This document shows, piece by piece, positions 9,048-27,115 of a stretch of DNA of 64,000 bases. The notes under the pieces are model-generated. The model worked only from the letters and a program-made list of their open reading frames with translations, did no database searches and was not told the DNA's origin. Positions within the stretch are counted from its first letter, which is position 1. The number at the start of each line of letters is the position of its first letter. A program made the position numbers and the translations under genes. Source of the DNA: Ignavibacteria bacterium (lineage in GTDB: Bacteria > Bacteroidota > Ignavibacteria > Kapaibacteriales > UBA4661). The stretch lies in the NCBI GenBank assembly GCA_013298775.1, contig JAAFIV010000004.1, positions 124,001 through 188,000 on the forward strand, read 5' to 3'.

Positions 9048-10547
9048 CTACTTATCCCACCACACCGGCGCAGTCATGCGCTCATAGCCCGCACCCGCAC
9101 GTTGTACGGCGGCATCCACGTTGGTTTTGTTGAAGGTAAATTCCGATGGCGGATAGAGCAAGCGCACAGGAAATGCGCCGCCCGTTACGTTTCCACGCGG
9201 GCTAGCAGGTTTCAAGCGCGGAAAGCCCGTTCTGCGGTATTCGGCGTAGGGTTCGTAGCCGTCGAGGAAGAGTGCAAGCCATTTTTGAGTGTGAATCTGC
9301 TCCAATGCTTTGCTCTGCGTGAAGACAACCTCCGCGCCGCGTAAATATGCGTCTTGCGCACTTGCCGAAATCACTGGCGGATTCTCTGGATAAATGCTGT
9401 ATTGCGTCAGTGCCGCCCGAACACCGCGCTCGTAGTGGTTTTGCGCCGATTGCGTTCCTGACCAGCCCTTCAATGCTGCTTCTGCTTGCAAAAATTCTGC
9501 CTCTGCCGCACACAATATCATGTTCACGCCCGAAAAATCCTCTGGAGCGAAGTGTTTGCTGGGGCGCGAGGCGCGTTTGTTGCTGTCGAGCGTTCTTTTT
9601 TCTTCAAAATACAATCCATTTGGTAAACCGACGGCGGGCATTTTATCAGAAAAAATTGGCAAACGCGGGTCATTGCTCGCTTTCATGCGCTCGACGAGCG
9701 TTTCACTGAGCGTAAACAAATCTTCCGTTACCGCAAAGGGCGTGAGCGTATTGCGATACCAAAAGCTGGACGCGATAAAATTCGTGTACGCATTATCGCT
9801 GTTCGAGCGCAAAAGCCCACCGCGCAATGCCTCTTCGCCATGCTGCCGCGCCAGTGCTGGTGCAACCGTTGAAATTCGCATTGCCAAGCGCAAACGCAGC
9901 GTATTGGCAAAGCGTCGCCATTTCTCCACATCTCCCTGATACACCGCATCGTTGCTCATTTCTCGCTTGCTCGCATCCAACGCTGCCGCCGCTTCTTTTA
10001 ATTCCTTCAGCATATCGGTATAAATTGCCTCCTGTGTGTCGTACTTGGGCGCGAGCGTCGTGCTTGGGAGGCTGCCTTTGCCTGCTTCACTGTACGGTAC
10101 ATCGCCAAAAAGGTCGGTAATACGCTGCATCTGGACGACGCGCAATATCCGCGCTACCGAGCGAACATTCACGAAGTCAGCATTTGTGCGGCTTTGCTCA
10201 ATGATTTCCTCTGCAATGCGCAAGGGACTATGCATATTGTAAAATCCCGCAAAGAGAAACTGCCACACGTCGCGGTCGGTGGCGGTCGGCGTTGGGCGAA
10301 AAACGTCGAACTCCGTGTGATAGACAGGCGCGAGATGCTGCACCACGCACGAAAGCGTGCCATACTGCACCGAAAAACCTTGCAAGGATTCGCCCGCCAA
10401 GCGTTGCTGACAGTTTGCGAGGAGCAAATGCGGGTCTGCGCTTGTGGCGCGTGTGGGATTGATATTCACGTCCTCAAGCCGCTCAGAGCAAGCATTGATG
10501 CTGAGTGCGAGGAGGATTGTAGTCAGAAGAAGGATGTTTTTTTTCAT
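9048..10547 (-). CDS. SusD/RagB-family outer-membrane lipoprotein
   Basis: 499 residues. The signal peptide ends at a lipobox cysteine (residue 20, LLALSINAC). The next segment, NPTRATSADPHLLL, and the helical TPR-like body with RITDLFGDVPYSEAG are characteristic of SusD-like glycan-binding lipoproteins, which cap the SusC channel and hand it oligosaccharides. The C-terminus ends in PVWWD, as is common in the family. The ATG at 10547 gives a normal signal peptide; the frame continues upstream only through repeat A2. It follows susC by 182 bases filled with that repeat. Confidence 0.88.
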   Translation of the reverse strand: MKKNILLLTTILLALSINACSERLEDVNINPTRATSADPHLLLANCQQRLAGESLQGFSVQYGTLSCVVQHLAPVYHTEFDVFRPTPTATDRDVWQFLFAGFYNMHSPLRIAEEIIEQSRTNADFVNVRSVARILRVVQMQRITDLFGDVPYSEAGKGSLPSTTLAPKYDTQEAIYTDMLKELKEAAAALDASKREMSNDAVYQGDVEKWRRFANTLRLRLAMRISTVAPALARQHGEEALRGGLLRSNSDNAYTNFIASSFWYRNTLTPFAVTEDLFTLSETLVERMKASNDPRLPIFSDKMPAVGLPNGLYFEEKRTLDSNKRASRPSKHFAPEDFSGVNMILCAAEAEFLQAEAALKGWSGTQSAQNHYERGVRAALTQYSIYPENPPVISASAQDAYLRGAEVVFTQSKALEQIHTQKWLALFLDGYEPYAEYRRTGFPRLKPASPRGNVTGGAFPVRLLYPPSEFTFNKTNVDAAVQRAGAGYERMTAPVWWDK

Positions 10548-10563
10548 GGTAAAGGAAAGTATT

Positions 10564-10701
10564 TTGAAATGTAGGTAACTCTTGCGCCCCCTCATCCCAA
10601 CCCTTCTCCCAGAGGGAGAAGGGCAAGAGACAGAGCCATTTCCACAACCCTCGCCCTCTGGGAGAGGGTCTCGCGCCGTCTTCGGAGCGAGGGGTGAGGG
10701 C
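10564..10701. repeat. family A element A2, between susC and susD
   Basis: Two CCCTTCTCCC/GAGGGAGAAGG-type palindromes are separated by about 30 bases. The left end (TTGAAATGTAGGTAACTCTTGC) aligns with the reverse complement of the terminus of copy 14403-14574. The other end has lost recognisable symmetry against the last codons of susC. In the susCD message it would form strong stem-loops just downstream of susC. Confidence 0.75.
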
Positions 10702-10729
10702 AGTGCGCGTGCTGCGTTTGGTGAAATTC

Positions 10730-13700
10730 TCAAAATTTCAGATTCACATTCACGCCCACGCTCCGCGCCGTTGGGTACGCGCCCATTTCTAAGCCTTGTC
10801 CGTTGGCGTTGGTGTAGCTTGTTTGCGGGTCAATGCCGGGAACAAAATTCAGCAAAAATGCCACATTCCGCGCCACAAGCGACACCGCCAGCCCACGCAC
10901 AATTCCCCCAAAGGCTGATGCAATCTGCTCTTCAGGCACTACGTACCCCAAGCGAACCTCGCGCAATTTCACAAAACTTGCATCATAAATAAACGGCTCG
11001 GCTGCTTGCGCAATGACGGGGTAGTACGCGGAGGCGCGTAAACGCTTGGTGTTCGTCTGACCATTCTCCAACACGCCTTCCGAGAGAACGCCCTCTTCCC
11101 GCCCTTTCAGGGTTTGTTTGTGATTGCCAACGTCGGTTTGAACGGCGTTGGAGTAGGAAAACATCTGCCCGCCGAAGCGGAAATCAATGAGTGCGCTGAG
11201 GGTAAAATTCTGCCACGCGAAAGTATTGGTGAAGCCGCCCAAAAGCGTCGGAGTCGAGTTCCCAAGCGGGATGTAGTCGTTGGTGAGAAGCGGTACGCCA
11301 TTTTCATTGTGCAAAATGCGCCCTTGTGCATCGCGCCGAAAACCCGTGCCTTGCAGCACGCCGTAAGGCTGATTCACCGTCGCCACGACGTTTGCAAGAT
11401 TGCGCCCTTCCTCCAAGAGCAAGGTTTCAAGCCCTGGCGAGAGCGAGGCGACAAGATTCCAGTTCCGCGCCAGATTCGCGCTCATGTCCCAGCGCAGTTC
11501 GCTGGGAAGCCGCCCTGCAAGCGGTGTTGCGGTCAGCACGATTTCTATGCCGTCATTCCGCATCTCGCCAACGTTGATAATTGCTTGGCGGAAGCCCGTG
11601 GTATAGGAAACGTCGGTGGGCAAAATTTGGTCAAAAACGCGCTGCGAATACCACGTAACATCAATTCCCAAGCGATTCTCTGCAAAGCGAGCATCTATGC
11701 CGAGTTCGAGCGTGTTTGAGCGCGTTGGGCGCAAGCTCGAAAGCGGTATCACAAAGCTCGACGCGCGAGCAATGGTGATGCTTCCACGCGGTTGATGTGC
11801 GGTTTGGTCAATGCCGTAGGTTTGCGTGAGTTGGTAGGGGTCGGTGTCGCTGCCAACAAGCGCGTAGGAAGCGCGGAGTTTTGCAAAGGAAATCGCCTCT
11901 GGAAGTCGCATCAATTCTGACAAAATGATGCTTGTGTTCACCGACGGATAGAAGTAGGAATTGTTCAAGGCGGGCAGTGTGGACGACCAATCATTTCGCA
12001 CCGTAACTTCGGCGAAAAGCCAGTTGTCATGCGCTAACTGGGCTGTTCCGAACACCGACAAAATGCGTTTGCGGGATAAATCGTAATACACATCGCGGTT
12101 TTTCACATTGCCAACGTTCACAATGTTGGGCAAAATAAATTCGTAGCCATTGACGTAATTCCCCTCAAAGCGACTATTCATCGCGTTTCCACCCAACGTA
12201 AAGGTCAGGCTCGTTTTTTCGGCAAGCGATTTCGTGTACGTCAAAAGCGCGTCGGCATTGATTTCTTCAGAGCTTGAGCGCGAATCGTATATCGCACCCG
12301 TCGGATTATACGGCGTTCCCGTACTTTCGATGAAAGCGTTGTTGCGAGCAAGCGCGTCGCGTCCAGCGCGGACTTGCAGCGTGAGTTCGTCGGTGATGGT
12401 ATAGCGCACGAGGGCAGATGCAATCAGGCGTTCAACGCTTTGGCGCGCAAAATGTTCATTTATCAAAAAGTACGGATTCGGATTGTACGCATCGCTTGTA
12501 AAGCTGACCACTTCTCCGTTTGCGGCGCGGTGCGAGCGAATCATCTCATTACTGATGCTTCGCGCCATGTACATAAAACTGCGTCCGGGATTGGCGAGGT
12601 CGGCAAGAGCGGTGCGGTTGGAAGATTCATTCACATAATTCACCTTCGCCTCAAGTTTGATGCGGTCTCCAAGCAACGCACCGCCAGTGAGCGTGAAGGT
12701 GCTGCGATTCAAAAAACTATTCGGAATCATGCCGCTATTGTCCATGTTCGAGGCGGAAAAGCGCACCGTTGCTGCTTCGGTGCCGCCTGAGAGCGCGACC
12801 GTATTGGTCAGCGTTCTACCTGTTTGGTAAAAATTTGCAATAGTGTTCGGCTGCGGAAGCAAGGGACGGCGCACTCCGTCGAAAAATTCTACCATTTGCC
12901 CCGTCATTTTGCTGCCCCAAGAGACCGTACCTGCATCCAGCGCGTCTGCTCGTGTTGCGGGCGTGAAGCCGCCGTAGCCGTGTCCGTATTCGTTTTGCAA
13001 ATCGGGCAAAATAAGCGGCGTTTCAAAGCTGAGATTGCCGTTGTACTCAATGCCCACGCCGTTTCGAGAGCCTCCAATAGTGCCTTTTTTCGTGGTAATC
13101 AAAATCACGCCATTTTGCGCCCGCGAGCCGTAGAGCGCGGAAGCCGCCGCACCGCGTAGAATGGACATCGAAGCCACGTCGTCGGGATTGATATGCTGAA
13201 TGCCGTCGCCCCAGTCCACACCGCCGTACTTGCCCGGCTGCGAGCCGCTTGCATTGTCAATCGGAATGCCGTCCACGACGTACAAAGGCTGGTTATTTTG
13301 ATACGCGCCCAGCAGCTTCACGCCGCGCAAAATCACGCGCGTCGAAGAGCCAACCGCACCGGTATTGATATTTACTTGGGCTCCGGCGACTTTGCCCACG
13401 AGTGCCGCAGAAATGTTCGTTTCGCGGGCTTCGGAAAATTCCTGCCCTTGTAGCTCCGAAACCGCATAACCAAGCGTCTTTTGCGCTTTCTCAATGCCAA
13501 TCGCCGTTACCACAACGGCATCGGTGCGGGCGGGGTCGAGGTCAAGAAGGATTTCTTTCGGGGAAGTGCCATTTTGTGCGGCTTCTGGCGATTGTTCAGC
13601 AAAGGAATCAAGGCGGATAAATTTCGTTTTGAACCCAACGTAGAACACTTCCAACACCGCTTGAGAACTTGTGTTTGCGGGAATCTGCACACGAAACGCG

Positions 13701-13900
13701 CCATCTGCGCCCGTGATAGCACCAAGCACTGTTCCCCGCAGCATCACCCGCGCACCCGATAGCGGCTGCTTTGTGGCAGCTTCGCGCACAACGCCAGTAA
13801 TGGAGCGGTTTGTGGGGGTAAGATTTGTTGAATTTGTTTGCGAAAAAAGAGGCGAAAGGCACACGACAAAAAACATTGACACGAGAAACAATCGTTTCAT
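10730..13900 (-). CDS. SusC/RagA-family TonB-linked outer-membrane transporter
   Basis: 1056 residues. A signal peptide (1-20) is followed by a carboxypeptidase-regulatory-like beta sandwich (about 30-110, SITGVVREAATKQPLSGARV), a plug domain (about 130-260) and a 22-strand-type barrel ending in phenylalanine (NLKF). The SusC signature LYVVDGIPID and ILRGAAASALYGSRAQNGVI are clear. It imports oligosaccharides across the outer membrane using TonB energy, with SusD as lid. The ATG at 13900 is preferred over an upstream TTG. A -7-like box TAGCTTTG lies 47 bases upstream. The divergent sensor kinase at 14622 is the likely regulator. Confidence 0.93.
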   Translation of the reverse strand: MKRLFLVSMFFVVCLSPLFSQTNSTNLTPTNRSITGVVREAATKQPLSGARVMLRGTVLGAITGADGAFRVQIPANTSSQAVLEVFYVGFKTKFIRLDSFAEQSPEAAQNGTSPKEILLDLDPARTDAVVVTAIGIEKAQKTLGYAVSELQGQEFSEARETNISAALVGKVAGAQVNINTGAVGSSTRVILRGVKLLGAYQNNQPLYVVDGIPIDNASGSQPGKYGGVDWGDGIQHINPDDVASMSILRGAAASALYGSRAQNGVILITTKKGTIGGSRNGVGIEYNGNLSFETPLILPDLQNEYGHGYGGFTPATRADALDAGTVSWGSKMTGQMVEFFDGVRRPLLPQPNTIANFYQTGRTLTNTVALSGGTEAATVRFSASNMDNSGMIPNSFLNRSTFTLTGGALLGDRIKLEAKVNYVNESSNRTALADLANPGRSFMYMARSISNEMIRSHRAANGEVVSFTSDAYNPNPYFLINEHFARQSVERLIASALVRYTITDELTLQVRAGRDALARNNAFIESTGTPYNPTGAIYDSRSSSEEINADALLTYTKSLAEKTSLTFTLGGNAMNSRFEGNYVNGYEFILPNIVNVGNVKNRDVYYDLSRKRILSVFGTAQLAHDNWLFAEVTVRNDWSSTLPALNNSYFYPSVNTSIILSELMRLPEAISFAKLRASYALVGSDTDPYQLTQTYGIDQTAHQPRGSITIARASSFVIPLSSLRPTRSNTLELGIDARFAENRLGIDVTWYSQRVFDQILPTDVSYTTGFRQAIINVGEMRNDGIEIVLTATPLAGRLPSELRWDMSANLARNWNLVASLSPGLETLLLEEGRNLANVVATVNQPYGVLQGTGFRRDAQGRILHNENGVPLLTNDYIPLGNSTPTLLGGFTNTFAWQNFTLSALIDFRFGGQMFSYSNAVQTDVGNHKQTLKGREEGVLSEGVLENGQTNTKRLRASAYYPVIAQAAEPFIYDASFVKLREVRLGYVVPEEQIASAFGGIVRGLAVSLVARNVAFLLNFVPGIDPQTSYTNANGQGLEMGAYPTARSVGVNVNLKF

Positions 13901-13946
13901 AGACAACCTCGCAAAAAACGTGGACGCAGTCTGCTGTAAGCGGCAT

Positions 13947-14030: not shown

Positions 14031-14201
14031 AAATGATGAATTCACCTTACGCATACCCTCGTGCCGCCCTCACCCCTCGCTACGCGAGACCCTCTCCCAC
14101 GCGAAGCGCGGGGCGAGGGTTGGTGGAGACTAGCTCTGAAGCCCTCTCCCTCTGGGAGAGGGTTGGGTGAGGGCGATGTACGTAAGGTAAAATGATGAAT
14201 T
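14031..14201. repeat. family A element A3 with 12-bp flanking direct repeats
   Basis: AAATGATGAATT occurs at 14031-14042 and again at 14190-14201. Between them ACCTTACG (14044) and CGTAAGGT (ending 14188) are inverted, and the interior is the CCCTCACCC/CCCTCTCCC family A core. The terminal repeats differ completely from those of A1 and A4, although the core is the same. Confidence 0.7.
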
Positions 14202-14402
14202 TTTCCCAGACAAAATTCTGATAGAGAATCAGCACGAAAATAGAATTTTTTGTTGATGAAGCAAACAGAAACGTGTATCTTTTCAGCCTCATATAAAAAA
14301 AATGAGTAGTTTGTAAGTAGTAGTGTATTAAAGTGTTATGCTGTTCTACGAAATGTGTCGTTGTTTATCAACGCTTTGTGCGTAATTTCTGAGTAGTCGT
14401 TT

Positions 14403-14574
14403 TTGAAGTTTAGATAAAATTCTGAAAGCCGCATAAAACCATGACCTGCACGAAGCCCTCACTTGAGCCCTCTCCCAGAGGGAGAGGGCTTCAGAACCCG
14501 CATAGAATCTTGCCCTTCTCCCTCTGGGAGAAGGGTTGGGATGAGGGCGGCGCAAGAGTTTATCTACACTTCAA
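14403..14574. repeat. family A element A4 with long terminal inverted repeats
   Basis: The left end TTGAAGTTTAGATAAAATTC is inverted at the right end (…GTTTATCTACACTTCAA) with two mismatches. The interior has the family A core palindromes. The unit aligns end to end with 33125-33306. It ends 47 bases before the kinase start codon, so it lies in that gene's leader or promoter. Confidence 0.8.
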
Positions 14575-14621
14575 CATTTATGTCGCTCTGTTTTCAGTCT
14601 CGCTCTTCTTTGGTTTGAGGT

Positions 14622-17600
14622 ATGATGTTTTCTCGTGTTTCTTTGGCGATTATTTATTTGATGATGTTGCAAAGCCTCATCATTCCTTGTGTTGCACAAA
14701 ATTTATTACACAATACTACCCCAAAAACCTTCCCACCTCGCTTCGACCGCATCACCAGCAAACACGGGCTTTCCAGCAATAGCATTACCTGTTTTGTGCA
14801 GGACAAGCGCGGTTTTCTGTGGATTGGAACGCATCACGGCTTGAACCGTTTCGACGGCTATCGCTGCAAAACATTCTTTGCAGACCCCGCAAAACCTCAC
14901 GCTCTCATCAACGACGACATTATGGACATCCTCGAAGACCGCGCAGGAACACTCTGGGTGGCGACGCACAATAGCGGCGTTGCGGCATTTCAGCCCGAAA
15001 CCGAGACCTTTACACACTTTCGGCACAATCCCGCCGACCCGCGTAGTCTCAGCGACGACAACGTTCACTCGCTCACGCTTGATTCTACGGGTTGTCTGTG
15101 GGTGTGTACCTACAATGGCGGTTTGAACCGTTTCGATGCTGCAAGCCTCACCTTTACTTGCCTCAAGGGAAAATTTCGCGGCGGCGAATGCGGCACCAAC
15201 GAGTGTTCGCTCACGGTCGTAGCAACGGCGCGGGATGGCGCGTTGTGGGTGGCTTCCGAAGGCGGCGGCACGTACCGCATTACCTTTCCCAAGCTGCAAC
15301 ATTCTGAGCAAAAATTCTCCCTGAACAGCGCATCAATACAAGCCTTTGCACAGGCTTCGACTTCGACAATCAATATGAAATCGAACTTCACCTCCGCGCT
15401 TGCTCCCTGTGCTGGAAGCGGCGTGTGGAGCGGCTCCTGGGGTGGCGGCATTGCGCACATTTTTCCCAAAGTAGAAGGTGGAATACGGCGCGTTCTTCGG
15501 AGCAGAACAAGCCCAAACACCGCACAAACACTGAGCGAGAGCGGTTTGTCGAACAACACTGTCAGCGCACTTTTTTGTGAAACCGATGGTACGCTCTGGA
15601 TAGGCACGTGGGGCGGCGGCTTGGTGCGCTACAAGCCGAATGCTGTGCCTGAACATGAGGCATGGAGCGAGGAATGGACAACATTCCAGCATGACGAATC
15701 GCATCCCGAACCGCTTGGCAGCAACTTCATCACCGCCATTTACCGCGACCACAATGGCATTTTGTGGATTGGCACTGAGAACGCGGGCGTGTCGGTGTGG
15801 AATCCCCACAAGCCGCAATTTACCGTGCTTAGGAGCAATTCATCATTGCAGAATTCCGTTCAGAATCAGCAAATATCAAGCCTGTATATGCACGACAACA
15901 TGATTACTGCCTTGGGAGGCAGTAGCGGTGCGGGTGTGTGGATTGGCACCATGAATGCGGGTTTGCAGCATTTCGACCCCGCAAGCCGCATTATTACTCA
16001 TTTCCCAAGCAATCTTTCCAATCCCAACGCCCTCAGCCACCGCTTTATCCAAGCACTTGCCGATGATGGAAAAGGGACGCTTTGGATTGGGAATGATAGC
16101 GGCGGCGTGAGTATGGTGCAATACGGCTCAACACCTGATAACATCAAGGCGCACAAGACATTTCATCCGCGCTCGTGGCGTATCAAAACGAATAATCCGC
16201 GTCAGTATTTGGAAACGCCTGGACTTGTTGAGGCAATGTTGCTGGATTCAGCACAAGCATCTTCGGGCGAAAAACAGCCACAAGCCGCTCTCTGGCTTGC
16301 TCTCACGGGAACGGGTTTGGTTCACTCGGCAATGTTTCGAGATTCGGCAACGGCGTTTATTCCACAGACACGTTCACCACGAAGTAAGCCTGGACCTGCT
16401 TCCACGCGGGTTATGGCAATGCTGCGCGACACCGATGGCGCGTTTTGGCTTGCAACCGACACGGCGGGTTTAGATAAATTTTACCCCGAAAGCCACACCG
16501 TTACACACTTTCGGCATCGTGCAAATGACACCACATCTCTTAGCAGCGACCAAGTGTCGTGCTTGCTCAAAGCAAGGAATGGTGCGCTGTTTGCGGGAAC
16601 GGGATTGGGTTTGAATCGTTTAGATATATCTCATCCAAATAATTCTGGTAAAAATTCCCCAACACAAGCATTTACGCGCTTTACCGTCGAGGACGGTCTG
16701 CCCGATAACGGCATTATTTCAATGCTCGAAGATGCGAAGGGTCGGCTCTGGATTGGCACAAATAAAGGCTTGTGCAGGGTGAGTTTTCCAACCCCGACGA
16801 CGCTCCAAGTCCGCGTCTTTACTGAAGCGGACGGCATTGCGGGCAATGAGCATACACGCGCTGCCTACCGCGCCCCCGACGGCACAATGTACTTTGGCAC
16901 ATCAAGCGGGCTGACGATATTTCACCCCGATTCGATTCGGGAAAATCCGAATCCTACAAGGCTCGCACTCACGGGCTTGAGGAAATTCAACCGCCTCGTA
17001 CAACTCGACTCCAGCGTAGCATATATGCGGGTTCTGCCGCTTTCGTACTTGGAAAATATCATCACGGTCGAGTTTGCCGCGCTGGGCTTTACGGTGGTGG
17101 AAAATCAGCAATATTCCTACAAAATGGACGGCTTCGACCGCGACTGGATTGCCGCCGGAACAAGTAGGGAAGCCACGTACACGAATCTTCGCGGTGGCGA
17201 GTATGTGTTTCGCGTTCGTGCGTTGCAGGGCGATGGCTCGTGGAGCAGCGAGGAAGCCCGACTCACGCTTGCCGTAACGCCACCCTTCTGGGAAACGGCG
17301 TGGTTTCTGACCTTGCTGGCAGTGAGTGTTTTGGGCGGCGTGATTGCGCTCACCTCCTTTGTGGCGCGGCAACGCCTAGCGGTGCGGGTGCAGGAATTGG
17401 AGCGGGAGCGGGCAATTCAAATCGAGCGCGAGCGAGAACGGGAGCGGATTTCGGCGGATATTCACGATGAAATTGGCTCTGGGCTGACGCACATTGCGAT
17501 ACTCAGCGAAGTTATCAAACAACAAACCTCCAGTGAAATGCCCTCGCGCCCGCACGTGGACACGCTTTCGGAGACAGCTCAGGACGTGGTAAAATCTATC

Positions 17601-18083
17601 GGCAACATCGTCTGGGCATTAAATCCCGACCACGACGAACTCCCGCATTTCCTCGCCTACACGCGCGAGTATTCCTCGACGTTTTTGCGCAGCGCGGGCA
17701 TTCGCTATGCTATTCGCTTTTCCGACGAAGCTCCGCCATACCGCTTAAAATCACTCATTCGGCGGAATTTATTTTTGATTGTGAAAGAATCGTTGAATAA
17801 TATCGTAAAATATGCGGATGCAAAAAATGTGGAAATTATCTTTTCGTTTCCAGAAGAATCTGCTCCCCACACAAGCAATGAAGCGGCAAACACGGCGATT
17901 GAATGTACACTCGTTGTGCGCGACGATGGTTGCGGGATGTCGTCGCTGGAAGGTCGGAAATTCGGACACGGCATGAAAACAATGCGTCGGCGGGCAGAGG
18001 AAATTGGCGGGACGTTTTTGTTGGAAAGCGAGCTTGGCAAAGGCACGGTGATTACGGTAAGGTTTGCGCTGGAAGGCGTGTAA
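14622..18083 (+). CDS. Reg_prop/Y_Y_Y periplasmic sensor histidine kinase (HisKA_3)
   Basis: 1153 residues. After a signal anchor come about fourteen propeller repeats (about 45-790; recurring GxLWIGTxxGGLxR pattern) forming two periplasmic beta-propellers, a Y_Y_Y domain (about 825-885, GGEYVFRVRA), one transmembrane helix (about 892-914), a short coiled coil, a HisKA_3 dimerisation domain with phospho-histidine in ISADIHDEIGSGL (about 948), and a HATPase_c domain (N box KESLNNIVKYADA, then DDGCGM). It resembles Bacteroides hybrid sensors that read periplasmic oligosaccharides, but carries no receiver or AraC domain. The NarL-type regulator 178 bases downstream is the likely partner. It is divergent from susC, which suggests control of that cluster. 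Confidence 0.92.
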   Translation: MMFSRVSLAIIYLMMLQSLIIPCVAQNLLHNTTPKTFPPRFDRITSKHGLSSNSITCFVQDKRGFLWIGTHHGLNRFDGYRCKTFFADPAKPHALINDDIMDILEDRAGTLWVATHNSGVAAFQPETETFTHFRHNPADPRSLSDDNVHSLTLDSTGCLWVCTYNGGLNRFDAASLTFTCLKGKFRGGECGTNECSLTVVATARDGALWVASEGGGTYRITFPKLQHSEQKFSLNSASIQAFAQASTSTINMKSNFTSALAPCAGSGVWSGSWGGGIAHIFPKVEGGIRRVLRSRTSPNTAQTLSESGLSNNTVSALFCETDGTLWIGTWGGGLVRYKPNAVPEHEAWSEEWTTFQHDESHPEPLGSNFITAIYRDHNGILWIGTENAGVSVWNPHKPQFTVLRSNSSLQNSVQNQQISSLYMHDNMITALGGSSGAGVWIGTMNAGLQHFDPASRIITHFPSNLSNPNALSHRFIQALADDGKGTLWIGNDSGGVSMVQYGSTPDNIKAHKTFHPRSWRIKTNNPRQYLETPGLVEAMLLDSAQASSGEKQPQAALWLALTGTGLVHSAMFRDSATAFIPQTRSPRSKPGPASTRVMAMLRDTDGAFWLATDTAGLDKFYPESHTVTHFRHRANDTTSLSSDQVSCLLKARNGALFAGTGLGLNRLDISHPNNSGKNSPTQAFTRFTVEDGLPDNGIISMLEDAKGRLWIGTNKGLCRVSFPTPTTLQVRVFTEADGIAGNEHTRAAYRAPDGTMYFGTSSGLTIFHPDSIRENPNPTRLALTGLRKFNRLVQLDSSVAYMRVLPLSYLENIITVEFAALGFTVVENQQYSYKMDGFDRDWIAAGTSREATYTNLRGGEYVFRVRALQGDGSWSSEEARLTLAVTPPFWETAWFLTLLAVSVLGGVIALTSFVARQRLAVRVQELERERAIQIERERERERISADIHDEIGSGLTHIAILSEVIKQQTSSEMPSRPHVDTLSETAQDVVKSIGNIVWALNPDHDELPHFLAYTREYSSTFLRSAGIRYAIRFSDEAPPYRLKSLIRRNLFLIVKESLNNIVKYADAKNVEIIFSFPEESAPHTSNEAANTAIECTLVVRDDGCGMSSLEGRKFGHGMKTMRRRAEEIGGTFLLESELGKGTVITVRFALEGV

Positions 18084-18092
18084 AATCTTCCT

Positions 18093-18204
18093 CTTCCCGT
18101 CCTACCGCTTCTTCGCGGTAGCACGGGTTTCCCAGAAGAGCGTTATTGCCGTGAAACCCGTGCGACGGCAGCGTTCACGCACTCCTCAGCCGTCGGACGG
18201 GAAG
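18093..18204. repeat. family C palindromic element between kinase and regulator genes
   Basis: The outer ends CTTCCCGTCC (18093-18102) and GGACGGGAAG (18195-18204) are inverted. An inner perfect 10-bp stem CACGGGTTTC/GAAACCCGTG spans 18122-18162. The right half (18163 onward) matches the unit split by A1 near 2092-2318. It lies within the probable kinase-regulator transcript. Confidence 0.75.
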
Positions 18205-18260
18205 AGCGTTGTTTCTATTCTCGGTATAATCATAATTTCTCAACTTTTTTGATAATAACA

Positions 18261-18938: not shown

Positions 18939-19168
18939 TTGTTCTCATTCTTTCACACCACTACGACGAAATTACGTTTGTCTATCTCCTTAAAATTACA
19001 GTCTCCCTGCTAACCAACTCATAATACGACGTTTATACGGTTTTGTGCCGCTTCGTAAAGCACTAGATTTGCCATTATTCACATTTCTTCAAAAGCGCGT
19101 CCTTGCTTGCTTGTTCGCTTAGTACGCATTCACGAAGAAATTCTGTTCAATGGCTTTTCTTTTGTGTT

Positions 19169-19852
19169 ATGAAGTGCCGTATAGTGCTGATAGAATCTCG
19201 CTTGCAGACGAGAAACGGTTTGTTTTTGCTTCTGAATACAATGCCGCATATAGAGTGCCTTGCCACCTTCCCCAATGCCGCATCCGCTCTTGCTGCGCTG
19301 CCCAACGTGCAGCCCGATGTCGTACTGACTGCACTCGACCTGCCCGACGTGCCAGATGCCACCGAATATATCCGCCAACTTTCCTCCGAATCCGCATCAA
19401 TACTACTATTAGCAAATTCCGAACCCGATGAACTGCTCGCAGAGTGTATAGAATCTGGCGCGATGGGCTGTGTTTACAAAGGCGCATCACCACTGACGTT
19501 GCAAGAAATGATGCTCAATCTTGCTTCCGCACGGGCAGAAATTTCCGCACCAATCGCACGGCTTCTCTTGCATAATCTCTTGCATCTCCCTCGCAAGCGT
19601 GGTGAAATCTTTGCTATTACCCACGATGCCGACCTGCATTGCGTACGGCTTTTTGCGTACGGCTACACCGACACCGACCTTGCTGAACAACTCGCACTCA
19701 CGCCCAACGACGTGAAAAGCCGCATCTTTCGGCTCTTGCAACACATTCACGCATTGCAGAGAGACTTTCGGGAAAAATTTCAGGAAGAGTCGAAGAGAGA
19801 ATCAATACTGCCAATTATTTCATCGCCGCTTTATAGGGAGAGAGCCGCATGA
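19169..19852 (+). CDS. degenerate (pseudo-)receiver protein related to NarL regulators
   Basis: 227 residues. It aligns along its whole length with the upstream regulator (for example DVVLTALDLPDV against DVVLMDIELPGI). The phosphoacceptor position is alanine, the acidic pair is reduced to ES, and the switch threonine region reads LLLANSE; only the lysine (VYKGAS) remains. The C-terminal HTH is also altered (LFAYGYTDTDLAEQLALTPNDV) but keeps helix spacing. It therefore cannot be phosphorylated in the normal way and may act constitutively, by ligand or by heterodimerisation. It overlaps the next gene by four bases (ATGA), so the two are translationally coupled. The ATG at 19169 aligns with the regulator start. 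Confidence 0.7.
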   Translation: MKCRIVLIESRLQTRNGLFLLLNTMPHIECLATFPNAASALAALPNVQPDVVLTALDLPDVPDATEYIRQLSSESASILLLANSEPDELLAECIESGAMGCVYKGASPLTLQEMMLNLASARAEISAPIARLLLHNLLHLPRKRGEIFAITHDADLHCVRLFAYGYTDTDLAEQLALTPNDVKSRIFRLLQHIHALQRDFREKFQEESKRESILPIISSPLYRERAA

Positions 19853-20208
19853 AATCGACACTTTTCATTCAAACGCTCTTGAAATACCCTGTTTTTGTCG
19901 CAAATCTGCGGGAACGCTCGCCAGACATCACGCGTCAAGAGCTGATTGTTACTATTCTTTTGCGGGCAGGCTTGTCGTCAAGCGAGATAGCGGGGCGTTT
20001 GCATTGTTCAGTGCGCACGGTGGAAAATCATCGTTTTCGGATCCGCCAAAAGCTAGAGCTGGAGACGAATACCCATCTTGCGGATTTCCTCTTGACGATA
20101 AAGGGAGAAAACCCAACACTGTTTTATGCTCTTGAACAAAACGCTGAACCACGCTATTCCTCTCATTTCGAGCAGAAGCACAAAAATCAGAAGAGTAAAA
20201 ATGAGTAG
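19849..20208 (+). CDS. solo LuxR-type HTH protein
   Basis: 119 residues. A GerE/LuxR HTH occupies about 25-90: RQELIVTILLRAGLSSSEIA, then CSVRTVENHRFRIRQKL, which keeps the VRTVENHR recognition helix. There is no receiver or ligand domain; the rest is a basic, poorly structured tail (KHKNQKSKNE). An AGGGAGAG Shine-Dalgarno and the ATGA overlap couple it to the pseudo-receiver gene. The pair may act together as a split regulator, with this protein supplying intact DNA binding. That is inference. Confidence 0.75.
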   Translation: MKSTLFIQTLLKYPVFVANLRERSPDITRQELIVTILLRAGLSSSEIAGRLHCSVRTVENHRFRIRQKLELETNTHLADFLLTIKGENPTLFYALEQNAEPRYSSHFEQKHKNQKSKNE

Positions 20209-20615
20209 AAATCGCTCACGCCACACAAAACTTATTTGACAGACGAATAGGGCAATTGTTAAGTATAAGTAGTAAATGAGTAGTAAATGAGTAGCGATTA
20301 AGCCATTAAGCAGCAGTATCTTACAGAAGATATTTAGTGCAATTATCACGTGATATTTCAGAAGTGCTTCTCTGAAAATCCGAAAAGTAAGAAAAACAAG
20401 GAGACGTTCCCCGAAGGGCGTGGTGTAATGTTATCTGCAAGGTTATATGTGCAAAAAGATACTCAATATCTGATAAGCAAGAAAAATCCAACTGTTCAGG
20501 TCTTCTCTGAGAGACTGCCTTTGTAAGGCGGGCTGTTACTTTTTGTGCTATTCATATCTCTTTTTCAACAATTCAAAACACAAGGAATGATGCCGTAATG
20601 ACGCTTTCGCACCAG
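20209..20615. other. gene-free, AT-rich gap
   Basis: No coding frame is convincing. AAATGAGTAGTAAATGAGTA-type repeats (about 20265-20295) and a perfect palindrome ATCACGTGAT at 20345-20354 are visible. Small hairpins near 20500-20535 precede ACTTTTTG. This is the convergent junction between the solo HTH gene and the HicBA pair. Confidence 0.5.
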
Positions 20616-20840
20616 TTACAACAGCGTTTTGAGGGCTTCTCGGCTCATCTCGCAATCGCGGAGAATTTGTGCCAAAAGTCCTGGACCAATGGTTTCGCCA
20701 GCATGAAGAGGAATAACTGTTTTTCGACCGTCAGGATGTTCAATAATGTGATGACTCCCTTTGATGCGGGTTTCTACAAAACCAGCTTTTTGCAAAGCGC
20801 GGAGAAGTTCTTTCCCAGTGAGAACAGGAGCGTGGGGCAT
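20616..20840 (-). CDS. hicA: HicA-family mRNA interferase toxin
   Basis: 74 residues, normal for HicA. The dsRBD-like fold motif GKELLRALQKAGF is followed by RIKGSHHIIEHPDGRKTVIPLH, with the conserved G-S-H catalytic histidine. HicA cleaves mRNAs in translation-independent fashion and is neutralised by HicB. It begins 6 bases after hicB, so the order is antitoxin first. Confidence 0.9.
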   Translation of the reverse strand: MPHAPVLTGKELLRALQKAGFVETRIKGSHHIIEHPDGRKTVIPLHAGETIGPGLLAQILRDCEMSREALKTLL

Positions 20841-20846
20841 ACAATA

Positions 20847-21098
20847 TTACGAAACGGAAGGGTGATTGGAAATGCGGGGCTTGAGAGGAATACTCATGCG
20901 TTGAACGCCCAAAAACTCCAGTTCTTCTGCGGGTTCTGGGCAATCTTCGAGGCAAAGTTCAATCGCTTCTTTGATGCGTTCCATCAGGGTATCAAGCGAG
21001 CGGGCTTGGGTGTGGCAGCCGCGTAGTTCTGGCACCGAAGCGACGTAATAGCCTTCGGTATCGCGCTCAATGACAATGCTAAACTCACGGTACATCAT
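20847..21098 (-). CDS. hicB: HicB-family antitoxin
   Basis: 83 residues. The N-terminal partial RNase H fold is clear: YREFSIVIERDTEGYYVASV, then PELRGCHTQARSLDTLMERI and EAIELCLED. The short C-terminus (LKPRISNHPSVS) has no obvious HTH or ribbon-helix-helix, so autoregulation by this protein is uncertain. The ATG at 21098 (or the next codon) matches the family start; the frame extends 38 codons further upstream without family similarity. Confidence 0.88.
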   Translation of the reverse strand: MMYREFSIVIERDTEGYYVASVPELRGCHTQARSLDTLMERIKEAIELCLEDCPEPAEELEFLGVQRMSIPLKPRISNHPSVS

Positions 21099-21283
21099 AA
21101 CAGATAACGCAATAGTGAAAAGAATACAACCCGAAAAGACACAATCTACAACAATAATTCTGTTTTTCCATACTCCCCAAACACAAGGAATGATGCCTAT
21201 GACAACGCTCACGCCGCCTATTCGCGCCGCACCAAAGAGAAAATCACAACAGCCCTAATTCAATTTTTTTTCATCTTTTACAA

Positions 21284-22633: not shown

Positions 22634-25600
22634 ATGAAAACCTTACGAATATTTCTTTTTTTGCTGACACTTCTCGTGTTCACGCACACCAATAACTCTT
22701 TCGCGCAAGTAGGTGTCGTAACAACCCTAGCGGGTGATGGCACTTTTGCTTTTCTTGATGGCATAGGCACGGGAGCCCAGTTTCGTGGTCCTTCTGGCAT
22801 TTGCAGCGATGGTGCTGGCAATCTTTTTGTGGCGGACCGGGTCAATAACCGTATCCGCCGCATCGTTATCGCCACAGGTATGGTAACAACGCTAGCAGGT
22901 GATGGTACTGCTGACTTTCTTGATGGCACAGGTACGGGAGCGCGGTTTAATACTCCTGTTGACGTGTGCAGCGACGGAGCAGGCAATCTTTTTGTGGTGG
23001 ACCGGGTCAATAACCGTATCCGCCGCATCGTTATCGCCACAGGTATGGTAACAACGCTAGCAGGTGATGGTACTGCTGGCTTTCTTGATGGCACAGGTAC
23101 GGGAGCGCGGTTTAATACTCCTCAGGGCGTGTGCAGTGACGGTGCAGGTAATCTGTTTGTAGGGGACGGTGGCAATAACCGCATCCGTCGCATCGTCATA
23201 GCCACGGGTGTGGTAACGACCCTGGCAGGCAATGGTACATTTGGCTTTCTTAATGGCACGGGCACGGGAGCGCAGTTTCGTAATCCTCATGGCGTGTGCA
23301 GCGACGGAGCAGGCAATCTTTTTGTGGCGGATATGACCAACGCACTCATCCGCCGCATCGTCATTGCCACGGGTGTAGTAACGACGTTAGCGGGCTTTCC
23401 GAGTGCACATGGCTTTGTTGATGGCACAGGCACGGGAGCGTGGTTTAATTTTCCTATTGGCGTGTGCAGCGACGGTGCGGGCAATCTTTTTGTGGCGGAT
23501 AATGGCAACGCCCGCATCCGTCGCATCGTTATCGCCACAGGTGTGGTAACAACGCTGGCAGGTGATGGTACTACTGGCTTTCTTGATGGCACAGGCACGG
23601 GAGCGCGGTTTAATACTGCTTACGGCGTATGCAACGATGGTGTAAGCAATCTTTTTGTGGCTGACATAAACAACAATCGCATCCGTAAGGTTGTTATCGT
23701 CAATTCCGCTGCTGCCTACTCTGGCACAACTTTCCCCGAAGCAGGCGCGAATAACGGCACTATCACTGTTACCCGCGACGTAACGCTCACGGGCGATACA
23801 TGGCTTCCAGCAGGCGCGTTCACAGGCGGTGGCACACACTACACCGCTACGGGCGTTCCAGGCGGTTTAGCGATAGACATTAACCGCATCTCCGCAACGG
23901 TAGCGCGTATTTCCTTCACAGGAACGGCGGCGGCGCATCAAAACGCGAATGATGCAACGGTAACATTGAACTTTACCAATGCCGCGCTCACAGGCGGTAA
24001 TGCAGCCACGGTAACAGGCTTAAATCCTGCCTCACTGACGCTGGACTTCAACGATAATCCCATCGCAGCCTACACAGGTACAACCTTCGCGGAAGCAGGT
24101 GCGAACAATGGCACTATCACCGTTACGCAAGACGTAACGCTCACAAGCGATACCTGGCTTCCCGCAGGCGCGTTCACAGGCGGCGGCACGCATTTCACCG
24201 CAACAGGCGTACCTGCGGGCTTGGCGATAGCAATTAACCGCATATCGGCAACAGTGGCGCGTATTTCCTTCACAGGAACGGCAGCAGCACACCAAAATGT
24301 GAACGATGCAACGGTAACGCTGAATTTCACCAATGCAGCGCTTACGGGCAATAATGCAGCAGGCGTAACAGGTTTAAACCCCGCGTCGCTGACACTAGAC
24401 TTCAACGATAATCCCACTGCCGCGTACACCGGCACAACGTTCGCCGAAGCAGGCGCGAACAATGGCACCATCACCGTTACGCAAGACGTAACGCTTACCA
24501 GCGATACGTGGGTTCCTGCGGGCTTGTTCACAGGCGGTGGTACGCACTACACCGCGACGGGCGTACCTGCGGGTTTGGCAATAGCAATTAACCGCATTTC
24601 GGCGACAGTGGCGCGTATTTCCTTCACCGGTACGGCGGCAGCACACGCCAACGCCAACGATGCAACGGTAACGCTGAATTTCACCAATGCCGCGCTCACA
24701 AGTGGCGTAGCGGCGGCAGTAACAGGCTTAAATCCTGCATCGCTGACGATTGATTTCAACGACCCGGGACCATCCGCCGCCTACACAGGCACAACGTTTG
24801 TCGAAGCAGGTGCGAATAACGGCACCATCACCGTTACCCGCGATGTAACGCTCACAAGTGATACGTGGCTTCCAGCAGGCGCGTTCACTGGCGGCGGCAC
24901 GCACTACACCGCAACAGGCGTACCTGCGGGCTTGACGATAGCAATTAACCGCATATCGGCAACGGTAGCGCGTATTTCCTTCACAGGCACGGCGGCGGCA
25001 CACGCTAACATGGACGATGCAACCGTAACGCTGAACTTCACCAATGCTGCGCTCACGAGCAATAATGCGGCGGCTGTGGGCGGCTTAAATCCTGCCTCGC
25101 TGACGCTGGACTTTAACGACCCTGCGCCTGTCGCACCCACAATGTTTACAGCCGCCACGCCGCCCGCAGGGACAGAAAGCGCGGCATACAGCTACACCTT
25201 TGTTGCCAACGGCTCGCCCACTCCCACCTACACGCTGTTTTCGGGAACCTTGCCGCCAGGGCTGATGCTCTCTGGCGCGGGCGTACTTTCTGGCACACCG
25301 ACAATGGCGGGAACCTTTGGTCCCTTCGTTGTTCGAGCGACCAATATTGCGGGGAATACCAGCACGGTGGGGCTCAACATTACTATCAATGCTGCTATTG
25401 TGCCGCCTCCACCGCCACCGCCGCCAGTGCTTACTGCGCCGACGATTTCAGGCGGTACGTTTTCTGCTTCGGTCGGTCTGCCGTTTGGTGCAAATCTGGG
25501 CTTGAGCGGCAACCCTACGCCGAGCGTAAGCGTGAGTGCGGGCGCGTTGCCGTCGGGCATAACGCTTGCTGGAAGCAGTCTGTCGGGTGTTCCTTCCGAA

Positions 25601-27115
25601 CAAGGCACGTTTACGGCAACGATTACCGCCACAAATAGCGAAGGCACAGCAACGACGGCGATTGTTGTGAATGTTGGTCCAGCAGTGCCGCTTATCACGA
25701 GCGTTTCTCCCGCTTCGGGGACATTTGGCTCAACGATAACGATTGGAGGCTTCAACATTACTGGCGTGAGCGCGGTCAATATCGGCGGCGTTCCAGCACA
25801 GAGTTTCCGTATGGAAGGCGGCAGCATTGTTGCGGTCGTGGGTGGCGGCGGGACGGGTTCGGTGAATATTACAACACCGCTTGGCAGCACGTCGGGCGGC
25901 TTTTTCACCTTTGAAGTGCCAGAACCACCCGTACTGACGGGCATTCTGCCAAAAACGATTACCACTGGTGATGAAAACGCGAGCATCTTCCTTGCAGGGC
26001 AGAATATCCCTGTGTATGCGTCGGTGAGCCTCGCGCCACTTGCAAGCAATGGTAAGGCGTTGGAAGGAAGTATTTCATTGCCGATTGTTGGCACAAGTTC
26101 CACGGGCGCGACGGTGCTTGTTCCCGTCTTTGCACGACTTTCTGGCACGAAGCGAATATCGGTGAAGGTTGGGGACGCGCTTGTGTCGGCAACGCTTGCT
26201 ATTGTGCAAGCCGCGCCACCGCTTGCCAGCGACCTTAGCCTCCGTTCCACCACCGCAAGCGGCGAAGCATTTACAACGTTTGTGAACGGTACGGGCTTCT
26301 TCCGCAACGGTTTTGCACGGATTTTCTTGAACGATGAGCAGAGTTTTTACAGCAACGTTGTGTCGGCAAACCAAGTGCGGGTGCATATTCCAGCCGAAAT
26401 GAATGTGCGAAACGGTACAGTGCGCATTCGCATTCAAAACATGGATGGTCAGGAAACTTCAGCAACGGTGCGGATTATCGGTCGCAACGCGCCGCTTATC
26501 ACGAGCATAACGCCGCGTTGGGTGAACGGCAATTTATCGTTTATCGTACGTGGTGTGGCGTTCAGCCCGCGCATTACGGCAATTCTTGGCAGACGACAAG
26601 TAACGGTGCTGCCAGGCGGTACGGATATTGAGTTTGAAGTGGCAGTGCCATCGGATTATCCCGCTCCGACCTTTGGAACGGCATTGCTGATGGTGGAAAA
26701 TCCCGACCGCCAACGCTACGGCATTTTGGTGGATGCGTCGCTGTTCGTGCGCCCATCGAACGCCCTTGCCACAGCAGAAAAATCTGCCTCCATTGCCAAT
26801 AGCGGTGCGAGTAGTAGTGCAAGTAGTAGTGCAAGTAGCAGTACGGCTTTCAAAGCCAGTAATGGTGCGAGTTTTGGCGCGTTGTCGTGTTCGCCAAACC
26901 CCGCTAGCGAGCTTCTGACGCTGGATGCACCTGCCTTCACGGGTCAAGCGCGTGTGCAGATTGTGAATGCGCGCGGCGAGGTGGTAATTTCTGGCACGGT
27001 TTCGGGCAGCGAGCGTTTGCAGGTGGATGTTCATTCATTGTCGGCAGGCGCATATTTTGTGCGGCTTCTGGGCGAGGGAATGAGTACAATGGCGCAGTTT
27101 ACGGTTATCCGATAA
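22634..27115 (+). CDS. large secreted NHL-propeller and tandem-repeat protein with T9SS sorting domain
   Basis: 1493 residues. Signal peptide (1-25, FAQ); seven NHL repeats of about 56 residues (about 28-360, pattern NLFVADxxNNRIRRIVIATG) forming a propeller; four 118-residue repeats (about 360-832, each starting AAYTGTTFxEAGANNGTITV); two putative Ig/He_PIG domains (about 836-1015) joined by a PPPPPPPP linker; IPT/TIG-like domains (about 1020-1380); a Ser/Ala-rich linker; and a C-terminal sorting domain (about 1418-1493, CSPNPASELLTL … LSAGAYFVRL) of the type IX secretion kind. It is likely a cell-surface or released adhesin or polymer-binding protein. Its function is not predictable from sequence. 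Confidence 0.85.
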   Translation: MKTLRIFLFLLTLLVFTHTNNSFAQVGVVTTLAGDGTFAFLDGIGTGAQFRGPSGICSDGAGNLFVADRVNNRIRRIVIATGMVTTLAGDGTADFLDGTGTGARFNTPVDVCSDGAGNLFVVDRVNNRIRRIVIATGMVTTLAGDGTAGFLDGTGTGARFNTPQGVCSDGAGNLFVGDGGNNRIRRIVIATGVVTTLAGNGTFGFLNGTGTGAQFRNPHGVCSDGAGNLFVADMTNALIRRIVIATGVVTTLAGFPSAHGFVDGTGTGAWFNFPIGVCSDGAGNLFVADNGNARIRRIVIATGVVTTLAGDGTTGFLDGTGTGARFNTAYGVCNDGVSNLFVADINNNRIRKVVIVNSAAAYSGTTFPEAGANNGTITVTRDVTLTGDTWLPAGAFTGGGTHYTATGVPGGLAIDINRISATVARISFTGTAAAHQNANDATVTLNFTNAALTGGNAATVTGLNPASLTLDFNDNPIAAYTGTTFAEAGANNGTITVTQDVTLTSDTWLPAGAFTGGGTHFTATGVPAGLAIAINRISATVARISFTGTAAAHQNVNDATVTLNFTNAALTGNNAAGVTGLNPASLTLDFNDNPTAAYTGTTFAEAGANNGTITVTQDVTLTSDTWVPAGLFTGGGTHYTATGVPAGLAIAINRISATVARISFTGTAAAHANANDATVTLNFTNAALTSGVAAAVTGLNPASLTIDFNDPGPSAAYTGTTFVEAGANNGTITVTRDVTLTSDTWLPAGAFTGGGTHYTATGVPAGLTIAINRISATVARISFTGTAAAHANMDDATVTLNFTNAALTSNNAAAVGGLNPASLTLDFNDPAPVAPTMFTAATPPAGTESAAYSYTFVANGSPTPTYTLFSGTLPPGLMLSGAGVLSGTPTMAGTFGPFVVRATNIAGNTSTVGLNITINAAIVPPPPPPPPVLTAPTISGGTFSASVGLPFGANLGLSGNPTPSVSVSAGALPSGITLAGSSLSGVPSEQGTFTATITATNSEGTATTAIVVNVGPAVPLITSVSPASGTFGSTITIGGFNITGVSAVNIGGVPAQSFRMEGGSIVAVVGGGGTGSVNITTPLGSTSGGFFTFEVPEPPVLTGILPKTITTGDENASIFLAGQNIPVYASVSLAPLASNGKALEGSISLPIVGTSSTGATVLVPVFARLSGTKRISVKVGDALVSATLAIVQAAPPLASDLSLRSTTASGEAFTTFVNGTGFFRNGFARIFLNDEQSFYSNVVSANQVRVHIPAEMNVRNGTVRIRIQNMDGQETSATVRIIGRNAPLITSITPRWVNGNLSFIVRGVAFSPRITAILGRRQVTVLPGGTDIEFEVAVPSDYPAPTFGTALLMVENPDRQRYGILVDASLFVRPSNALATAEKSASIANSGASSSASSSASSSTAFKASNGASFGALSCSPNPASELLTLDAPAFTGQARVQIVNARGEVVISGTVSGSERLQVDVHSLSAGAYFVRLLGEGMSTMAQFTVIR
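22800..23700 (+). repeat. coding NHL repeats, partly identical at DNA level
   Basis: The units are about 168 bp. The second and third, about 22840-23120, are nearly identical over more than 130 bases, which suggests recent duplication or gene conversion; the later units are more diverged. Confidence 0.8.
23711..25132 (+). repeat. four tandem coding repeats of 354-357 bp
   Basis: The units start at 23711, 24065, 24419 and 24776, each at the codons for AAY. They encode 118-119 residues rich in Thr, Ala, Gly and Asn, ending LNPASLTLDFND. Differences are mostly synonymous. Confidence 0.9.

Follow-up and report, generated by a model that had tools for sequence, protein, structure and literature searches.

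We find that a Reg_prop histidine kinase and an intact NarL-type response regulator in an uncultured Kapaibacterium-like bacterium are followed by two overlapping genes, one for a receiver-like protein with Ala in place of the phosphoacceptor Asp (the pseudo-receiver) and one for a small protein containing a LuxR-type HTH (the solo HTH). This module is real, under selection and conserved in one sister species, and is a variation on a known theme. Our preferred reading, held tentatively and at somewhat less than even chance, is that the pseudo-receiver acts independently of phosphate and, being co-translated with a DNA-binding protein, modulates chiefly the solo HTH on the kinase, regulator and susCD promoters.

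The stretch of DNA that was analysed (the window, 64,000 nucleotides) lies on contig C34 of an assembly (G000) of 5.19 Mb in 95 contigs. Genes for a SusD-like lipoprotein (9048..10733) and a SusC-like TonB-dependent receptor (10730..13906) occupy its minus strand, followed on the plus strand by the histidine kinase, which has Reg_prop propellers and Y_Y_Y, HisKA_3 and HATPase_c domains (14622..18083), the intact regulator (RR18261; 18261..18938), the 227-residue pseudo-receiver (19169..19852, with ATG at 19169 and stop TGA at 19850-19852) and the 119-residue solo HTH (19849..20208). The gap between kinase and regulator contains a strongly folding palindromic repeat (18085-18215; z -6.0 as DNA), and its 41 genome matches mark it as a dispersed repetitive element.

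The pseudo-receiver and its co-translated HTH protein

The pseudo-receiver consists of a receiver fold (residues 1-125), a linker, a degenerate NarL-type HTH (residues about 153-195) and a neutral tail. As the first-pass annotation of this DNA had noted, it aligns with RR18261; the alignment spans 222 residues, of which 25% are identical (E 1e-14). Pfam Response_reg (PF00072) matches it at 9.5e-8, with 32.6 bits against a cut-off of 30.2; the orthologue in the nearest relative carrying the pair, Candidatus Kapaibacterium sp. isolate PH2015_12D_48_15 (G005, contig RDXM01000093.1), scores 31.9 bits. At the canonical acidic, Asp, Asp, Thr/Ser and Lys positions it has E9, S10, A55, A82 and K104, and its orthologue E, S, A, K and K. 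We surveyed 54 further NarL-type regulators from the same order and one flavobacterium; the phosphoacceptor Asp, the second Asp of the acidic pair, the switch Thr/Ser and the Lys were each found in 54/54. The Ala reported at the phosphoacceptor (codon 19331..19333, plus strand) is thus confirmed, and its retention in the only known orthologue supports the proposal of a receiver that is probably phosphorylation-dead. The acidic pair had been called broken; its second Asp is indeed replaced by Ser, but the first acidic residue, E9, is kept, as is K104, so that the pair is half broken rather than lost. The same annotation had named an orthologue with the Asp restored, or loss of the reading frame in sister strains, as evidence against it, and the sole orthologue has both the Ala and an intact frame. 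With PF00072 recognised and the phosphoacceptor Asp absent, the protein is by sequence an aspartate-less receiver.

An AlphaFold model of the pseudo-receiver, built from only four sequences, has a mean pLDDT of 71. The receiver is confident (87-93 at residues 1-70, 73-82 at 71-120), and in the C-terminal part the HTH is weak (56-71) and the tail disordered. The closest solved structures are NarL (1rnl, E 9.4e-11) and the receiver of DesR (rmsd 1.6 over 120 columns), and the fold is predicted to be NarL-like. Domain order, model and NCBIfam matches fit NarL, and the match to an HTH model of the surveyed regulators is weak. Pfam GerE gave no match at E<=1 in the window pseudo-receiver, and an HTH model built from 54 regulators scored the HTHs of the two pseudo-receivers at 19 and 24 bits, versus 98 and 105 bits for two intact ones, in agreement with the altered HTH described earlier; a model of the TPR-regulator class gave them only 4-7 bits. 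Net charge in this region is -2 in both orthologues versus +1 in RR18261, and V-K is kept in the recognition helix. Judged by sequence, the HTH is degenerate yet recognisable.

The 119-residue protein had been described as bearing an intact HTH, which a GerE match of 6.4e-11 bears out (6.1e-10 in G005 and 1.7e-10 in a second relative, G002). Besides GerE it has just HTH/sigma-region models or weak matches, which places it among solo LuxR/GerE-type proteins. The TPR-regulator HTH model scores this protein and its two orthologues at 84, 75 and 86 bits, compared to 50, 45 and 44 bits with the NarL-regulator model. These models were made from 16 proteins over 300 aa (TPR class) and 54 regulators (NarL class); four of ten shorter HTH proteins were scored, and none was used in building them. 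A domain scan of four proteins of the TPR-class set showed TPR repeats in three and a PAS domain in the fourth. The domain scan found no TPR repeats in the solo HTH or its orthologues, so it is a relative of the TPR-LuxR regulators by its HTH rather than a member of them. Its predicted structure is a LuxR-type HTH (mean pLDDT 80), with every Foldseek match above E 0.01.

The two genes overlap as ATGA, as first reported, and an identical ATGA overlap is present in G005. A stretch within the neutral tail of the pseudo-receiver, TATAGGGAGARAGCCGCATGAAATC, carries in the last codons of the gene a Shine-Dalgarno-like run for the solo HTH (GGGAGAG, 19836..19842, plus strand). Stretch and run are also conserved in G005, where six of the last seven residues of the pseudo-receiver are identical. 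Among eight other gene starts inspected in the window, two (14622 and 4902) show a short GAGG-type run and six, including that of the pseudo-receiver itself, show none. The operonic coupling proposed for the pair is conserved in G005.

Comparison of the window pseudo-receiver with its G005 orthologue gave an omega of 0.32 for the whole protein (95% CI 0.22-0.45), 0.20 for the receiver (CI 0.11-0.34) and 0.40 for the HTH region (CI 0.18-0.76). The last 27 residues are neutral (1.14, CI 0.52-2.84), the exception being the stretch with the ribosome-binding run. Residues 1-85 of the solo HTH gave 0.20 (CI 0.10-0.37). Other estimators were higher, with maxima of 0.52 (whole pseudo-receiver) and 0.60 (C-terminal 102 residues). 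In the same comparison the intact regulator gave 0.11-0.15 and the kinase 0.15-0.17; the pair evolves faster than its neighbouring genes, yet is constrained. The purifying selection on the receiver, the degenerate HTH and the solo HTH argues that these are neither decaying nor pseudogenes, and the 227 residues of the pseudo-receiver orthologues align with zero indels.

Distribution, gene order and origin

A pseudo-receiver orthologue occurs in one of the 98 other genomes of the order, G005, whose pair is 64% (pseudo-receiver) and 63-67% (solo HTH) identical to that of the window. A class-wide search with the pseudo-receiver alignment, on an evenly drawn sample, matched 12 of 294 genomes at E<=1e-18, G000 and G005 included. 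For the other ten (best E 4e-22 to 5e-19) we inspected eight regulators, all of which have the phosphoacceptor Asp; no further pseudo-receiver is among the matches listed for this 294-genome sample, and neither is G002. A scan of genome contigs returned two loci, that of G005 and a 24% identical flavobacterial regulator which has the Asp, and a plasmid search gave no match. Relatives of the solo HTH in the order are G005 and then G002 (51% identity); in the next matches (E 1.6e-15 or weaker) the HTH is part of a protein that is longer or of different architecture.

Of eight genomes of the genus, only G000, G005 and G002 have an orthologue of the kinase (E<=1e-150). The solo HTH is found in 3/3 of these and in 0/5 of the others (one-sided Fisher p 0.018), and the pseudo-receiver in two of the three. 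This co-occurrence, with the solo HTH in exactly the 3/8 genomes with the kinase, supports the suggested functional tie of the pair to the kinase system; a caution is that these three genomes might just be each other's nearest relatives. G002 (91% complete) carries the kinase, the regulator and the solo HTH. Its 5468-base contig contains neither a pseudo-receiver nor a remnant of one, and across the whole genome the best match to the pseudo-receiver is the G002 regulator, at 25%. The solo HTH can thus presumably work without a pseudo-receiver.

The order of the genes differs in each genome. The window has susD and susC (minus strand), then kinase, regulator, pseudo-receiver and solo HTH. In G005, susC, one gene, susD and the regulator are on the minus strand, with the kinase divergent; the pair, also on the minus strand, lies 7.6 kb past the kinase and is flanked by glmS and a histidine-kinase-like gene. 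Its distance from the regulator, which lies behind susD, is about 18 kb. In G002 the kinase is followed by the regulator on the opposite strand and the solo HTH on the plus strand, and the closest susC (66-68%) adjoins a different kinase. Conservation of the three-gene order, proposed earlier as a check, is not found, and only the two-gene order is kept in G005. The kinase, regulator and solo-HTH genes, though orthologous or close, thus have three different arrangements in three genomes, and the regulator genes are unusually mobile. The pair moved together with about 200 bp of upstream DNA while regulator and kinase moved apart; because this upstream region (18956..19168, plus strand) remains attached to the pair in G005, it probably contains the pair's own promoter.

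The small histidine-kinase-like gene after the pair in G005 (L068 10078-11061) was considered as a co-operon partner; its relatives occur in 7/61 genomes searched and the G000 copy is on another contig (G000:C78:40386-41366), so we regard the link as incidental. Its protein has the stretch HDIRGG and HATPase_c as its sole Pfam match, and it is present in 6/8 genus genomes and one genome of another genus.

The first-pass annotation had proposed a split regulator that arose by duplication of the adjacent NarL regulator. A split response regulator would have an HTH of the common family and a receiver protein lacking one, and neither is seen here: the TPR-class scores of the solo HTH indicate that it is not half of a NarL regulator, and the pseudo-receiver retains an HTH-like domain of its own, which argues that nothing was split. 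In a 56-row tree, which omits regulators aligned over <150 residues, ORFs >=330 aa and sequences that duplicate another in the last 120 residues, the two pseudo-receivers group as a single clade. Its stem measures 3.47 changes per column, and a well supported split (97/95, 26 rows) puts it among regulators that mostly stand beside Reg_prop kinases. Constraining them to RR18261 and its G005 orthologue alone was 3.8 log units worse, a marginal rejection (p-AU 0.042), and adding the G002 regulator to the constraint removed the cost (p-AU 0.512). The long pseudo-receiver branch makes this test suggestive only. Duplication of the adjacent gene is not supported as proposed; the tree tests would allow a duplication within this regulator lineage and do not favour a recent copy of RR18261. 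The pseudo-receiver appears to be a very diverged paralogue in the lineage of RR18261, older than the split of G000 and G005.

Possible partners of the pseudo-receiver

We propose that the pair would form a two-gene, separately promoted accessory module of the Reg_prop histidine kinase/NarL regulator system, in which the solo HTH may be a self-contained LuxR-type DNA-binding output protein. The pseudo-receiver would have kept its fold and lost the chemistry of phosphorylation and probably DNA binding. Judging from related families, the usual relay from the kinase would be impossible for a receiver without the Asp, and a receiver and HTH fold kept under selection with poor DNA-binding residues point to protein contact, with activity set by amount rather than by phosphate. 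The solo HTH would be the likeliest contact, because no linkage other than co-translation is shared by the two genomes, and the pseudo-receiver would tune its action on the kinase, regulator and susCD promoters. Against this reading count the direct neighbourhood of pair, kinase and regulator in the window only, the solo HTH of G002 that has no pseudo-receiver beside it, and the selection that still acts on the pseudo-receiver HTH; the comparison rests on the two orthologous pairs known. The case is small and testable: a protein seemingly without both of its usual activities is still kept, and protein contact would be the one function left to it. That the two proteins make up one regulator from two families, with the pseudo-receiver, devoid of phosphorylation and DNA binding, as regulatory subunit of the co-translated solo LuxR protein, we consider doubtful. 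If it were so, the two-component system would gain a second output that is phosphate-independent and set by dosage.

If co-translation is the guide, the partner would be the solo HTH; if paralogy is, it would be the adjacent regulator. The pseudo-receiver might form heterodimers with RR18261, as had been suggested at first pass, and block or retune it in the manner of TrlR on TraR, CerN on CerM or WhiI with BldM, the solo HTH being merely co-expressed. A paralogue of the same lineage, for which a clade shared with RR18261, the G005 orthologue of RR18261 and the G002 regulator is not rejected, and whose HTH is negatively charged, would suit this role, and the dimer face of NarL-type receivers is conserved between the pseudo-receiver orthologues (8/13 identical residues in alpha1, 11/14 in alpha5). 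However, alpha2 (10/11) and alpha4 (7/8) are conserved as much as alpha5, identity to the regulator is only 25%, with a stem of 3.5 changes per column, and in G005 pair and regulator are no longer linked. We judge this partnership rather unlikely, if the best of the alternatives.

Since the pseudo-receiver HTH is still selected and keeps V-K, it may still bind DNA. The protein could then be an aspartate-less DNA-binding homodimer of altered specificity, similar to BldM, with the solo HTH as a second factor of the operon. (BldM and WhiI are encoded by unlinked genes and have intact HTHs.) The omega of the HTH region, the predicted HTH helices and the better score in the NarL class than in the TPR class are in line with DNA binding, against which stand the missing GerE match, the negative charge in both orthologues and an HTH that is less conserved than the receiver. 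This seems improbable to us. That the gene is an outgoing relic, kept mainly for the ribosome-binding site at its end, would fit its absence from G002 and the conserved last residues of a neutral tail, but is very unlikely and largely refuted by selection on the receiver, which is far from neutral, and by the lack of any indel in 227 codons.

Known systems and candidate operators

No publication on a pseudo-receiver combined with a solo HTH was found in the literature searched, but related systems are described. Aspartate-less receivers are several percent of PF00072 receivers, and how pseudo-receivers are activated or inactivated is called a mystery (PMC12632262). Aspartate-less and pseudo-receivers likewise join a receiver fold without the phosphoacceptor Asp to a DNA-binding-type domain (PMC4395418, PMC12632262); in the present case the attached HTH is degenerate too, and a separate HTH protein is co-translated. 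CmrRST of Clostridioides difficile similarly has a kinase, a canonical regulator and a pseudo-receiver regulator in one system (PMC12632262, PMC12548384), but as described there its regulators are OmpR-type and in one operon, whereas ours are NarL-type with an extra solo HTH. BldM and WhiI of Streptomyces, two atypical orphan response regulators, work together as a heterodimer (PMC4125116); in that account both are full-length regulators binding DNA together, while in our pair a solo HTH from a different class takes the place of one of them. In TrlR/TraR and CerN/CerM, a DNA-binding LuxR protein is modulated by a LuxR-type protein whose own DNA-binding domain is not functional (PMC6341043, PMC11655674), the sensor domains reported for these binding acyl-homoserine lactones where our protein has a receiver fold. 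The solo HTH resembles the C-terminal HTH of TPR-LuxR regulators by its HTH class. The matches in the order include at least 10 short relatives of 146-185 aa; ours is shorter than these GerE/TPR-class relatives and is tied to a two-component system.

We also looked for operator sequences, choosing the patterns after the sites had been seen. The window contains two copies of the 9-mer ATGAGTAGT, one in the susC-kinase gap (14302) and one directly past the solo HTH (20276; 1/100 shuffles had >=2), and in G002 it precedes the solo HTH. Genome-wide it has 16 sites versus 41 for a reversed control and is therefore not enriched; of the 14 sites besides the two in the window, 11 fall within ORFs >=100 aa. 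Inverted repeats common to the pair and kinase promoters were not found. For the composite ATGAGTAGTN8AGTAGT, G000 has a single exact site, which precedes the kinase (14302..14324, plus strand), the pair's own upstream site in the window being degenerate. In G005 its one exact site is before the pair and the kinase site has one mismatch; at <=1 mismatch there are four sites, two in this system and two elsewhere. The best 24-base match of the pair and kinase promoters beat 60/60 shuffles in G005, while 36/60 were as good in the window, and for the best 15-base match in G005 52/60 were as good. The other strand carries the heptamer TACTCAT, which presumably fits the NarL heptamer consensus. The direct-repeat operator is a candidate only, a weak post hoc lead. 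The phased direct repeat GTAGTAAATGA directly past the solo-HTH gene (20269..20294, plus strand) is likewise weak.

Near-identical phased ACTACTCATTT repeat arrays occur at unrelated places in two genomes, G005:C59:8304-8326 (L155) and window 20269-20294. Two stretches of the susC-kinase gap, 14042-14246 and 14405-14575, are missing from the corresponding gap of G005, elsewhere about 88% identical, and look like inserted repeats. Genes for a hicA-like toxin and a hicB-like antitoxin lie beside the pair on the minus strand (20616-21212), and near the locus (22634-27115) is a gene for a 1493-residue protein, judged by eye to be of a secreted type, with repeated NHL-like and other stretches.
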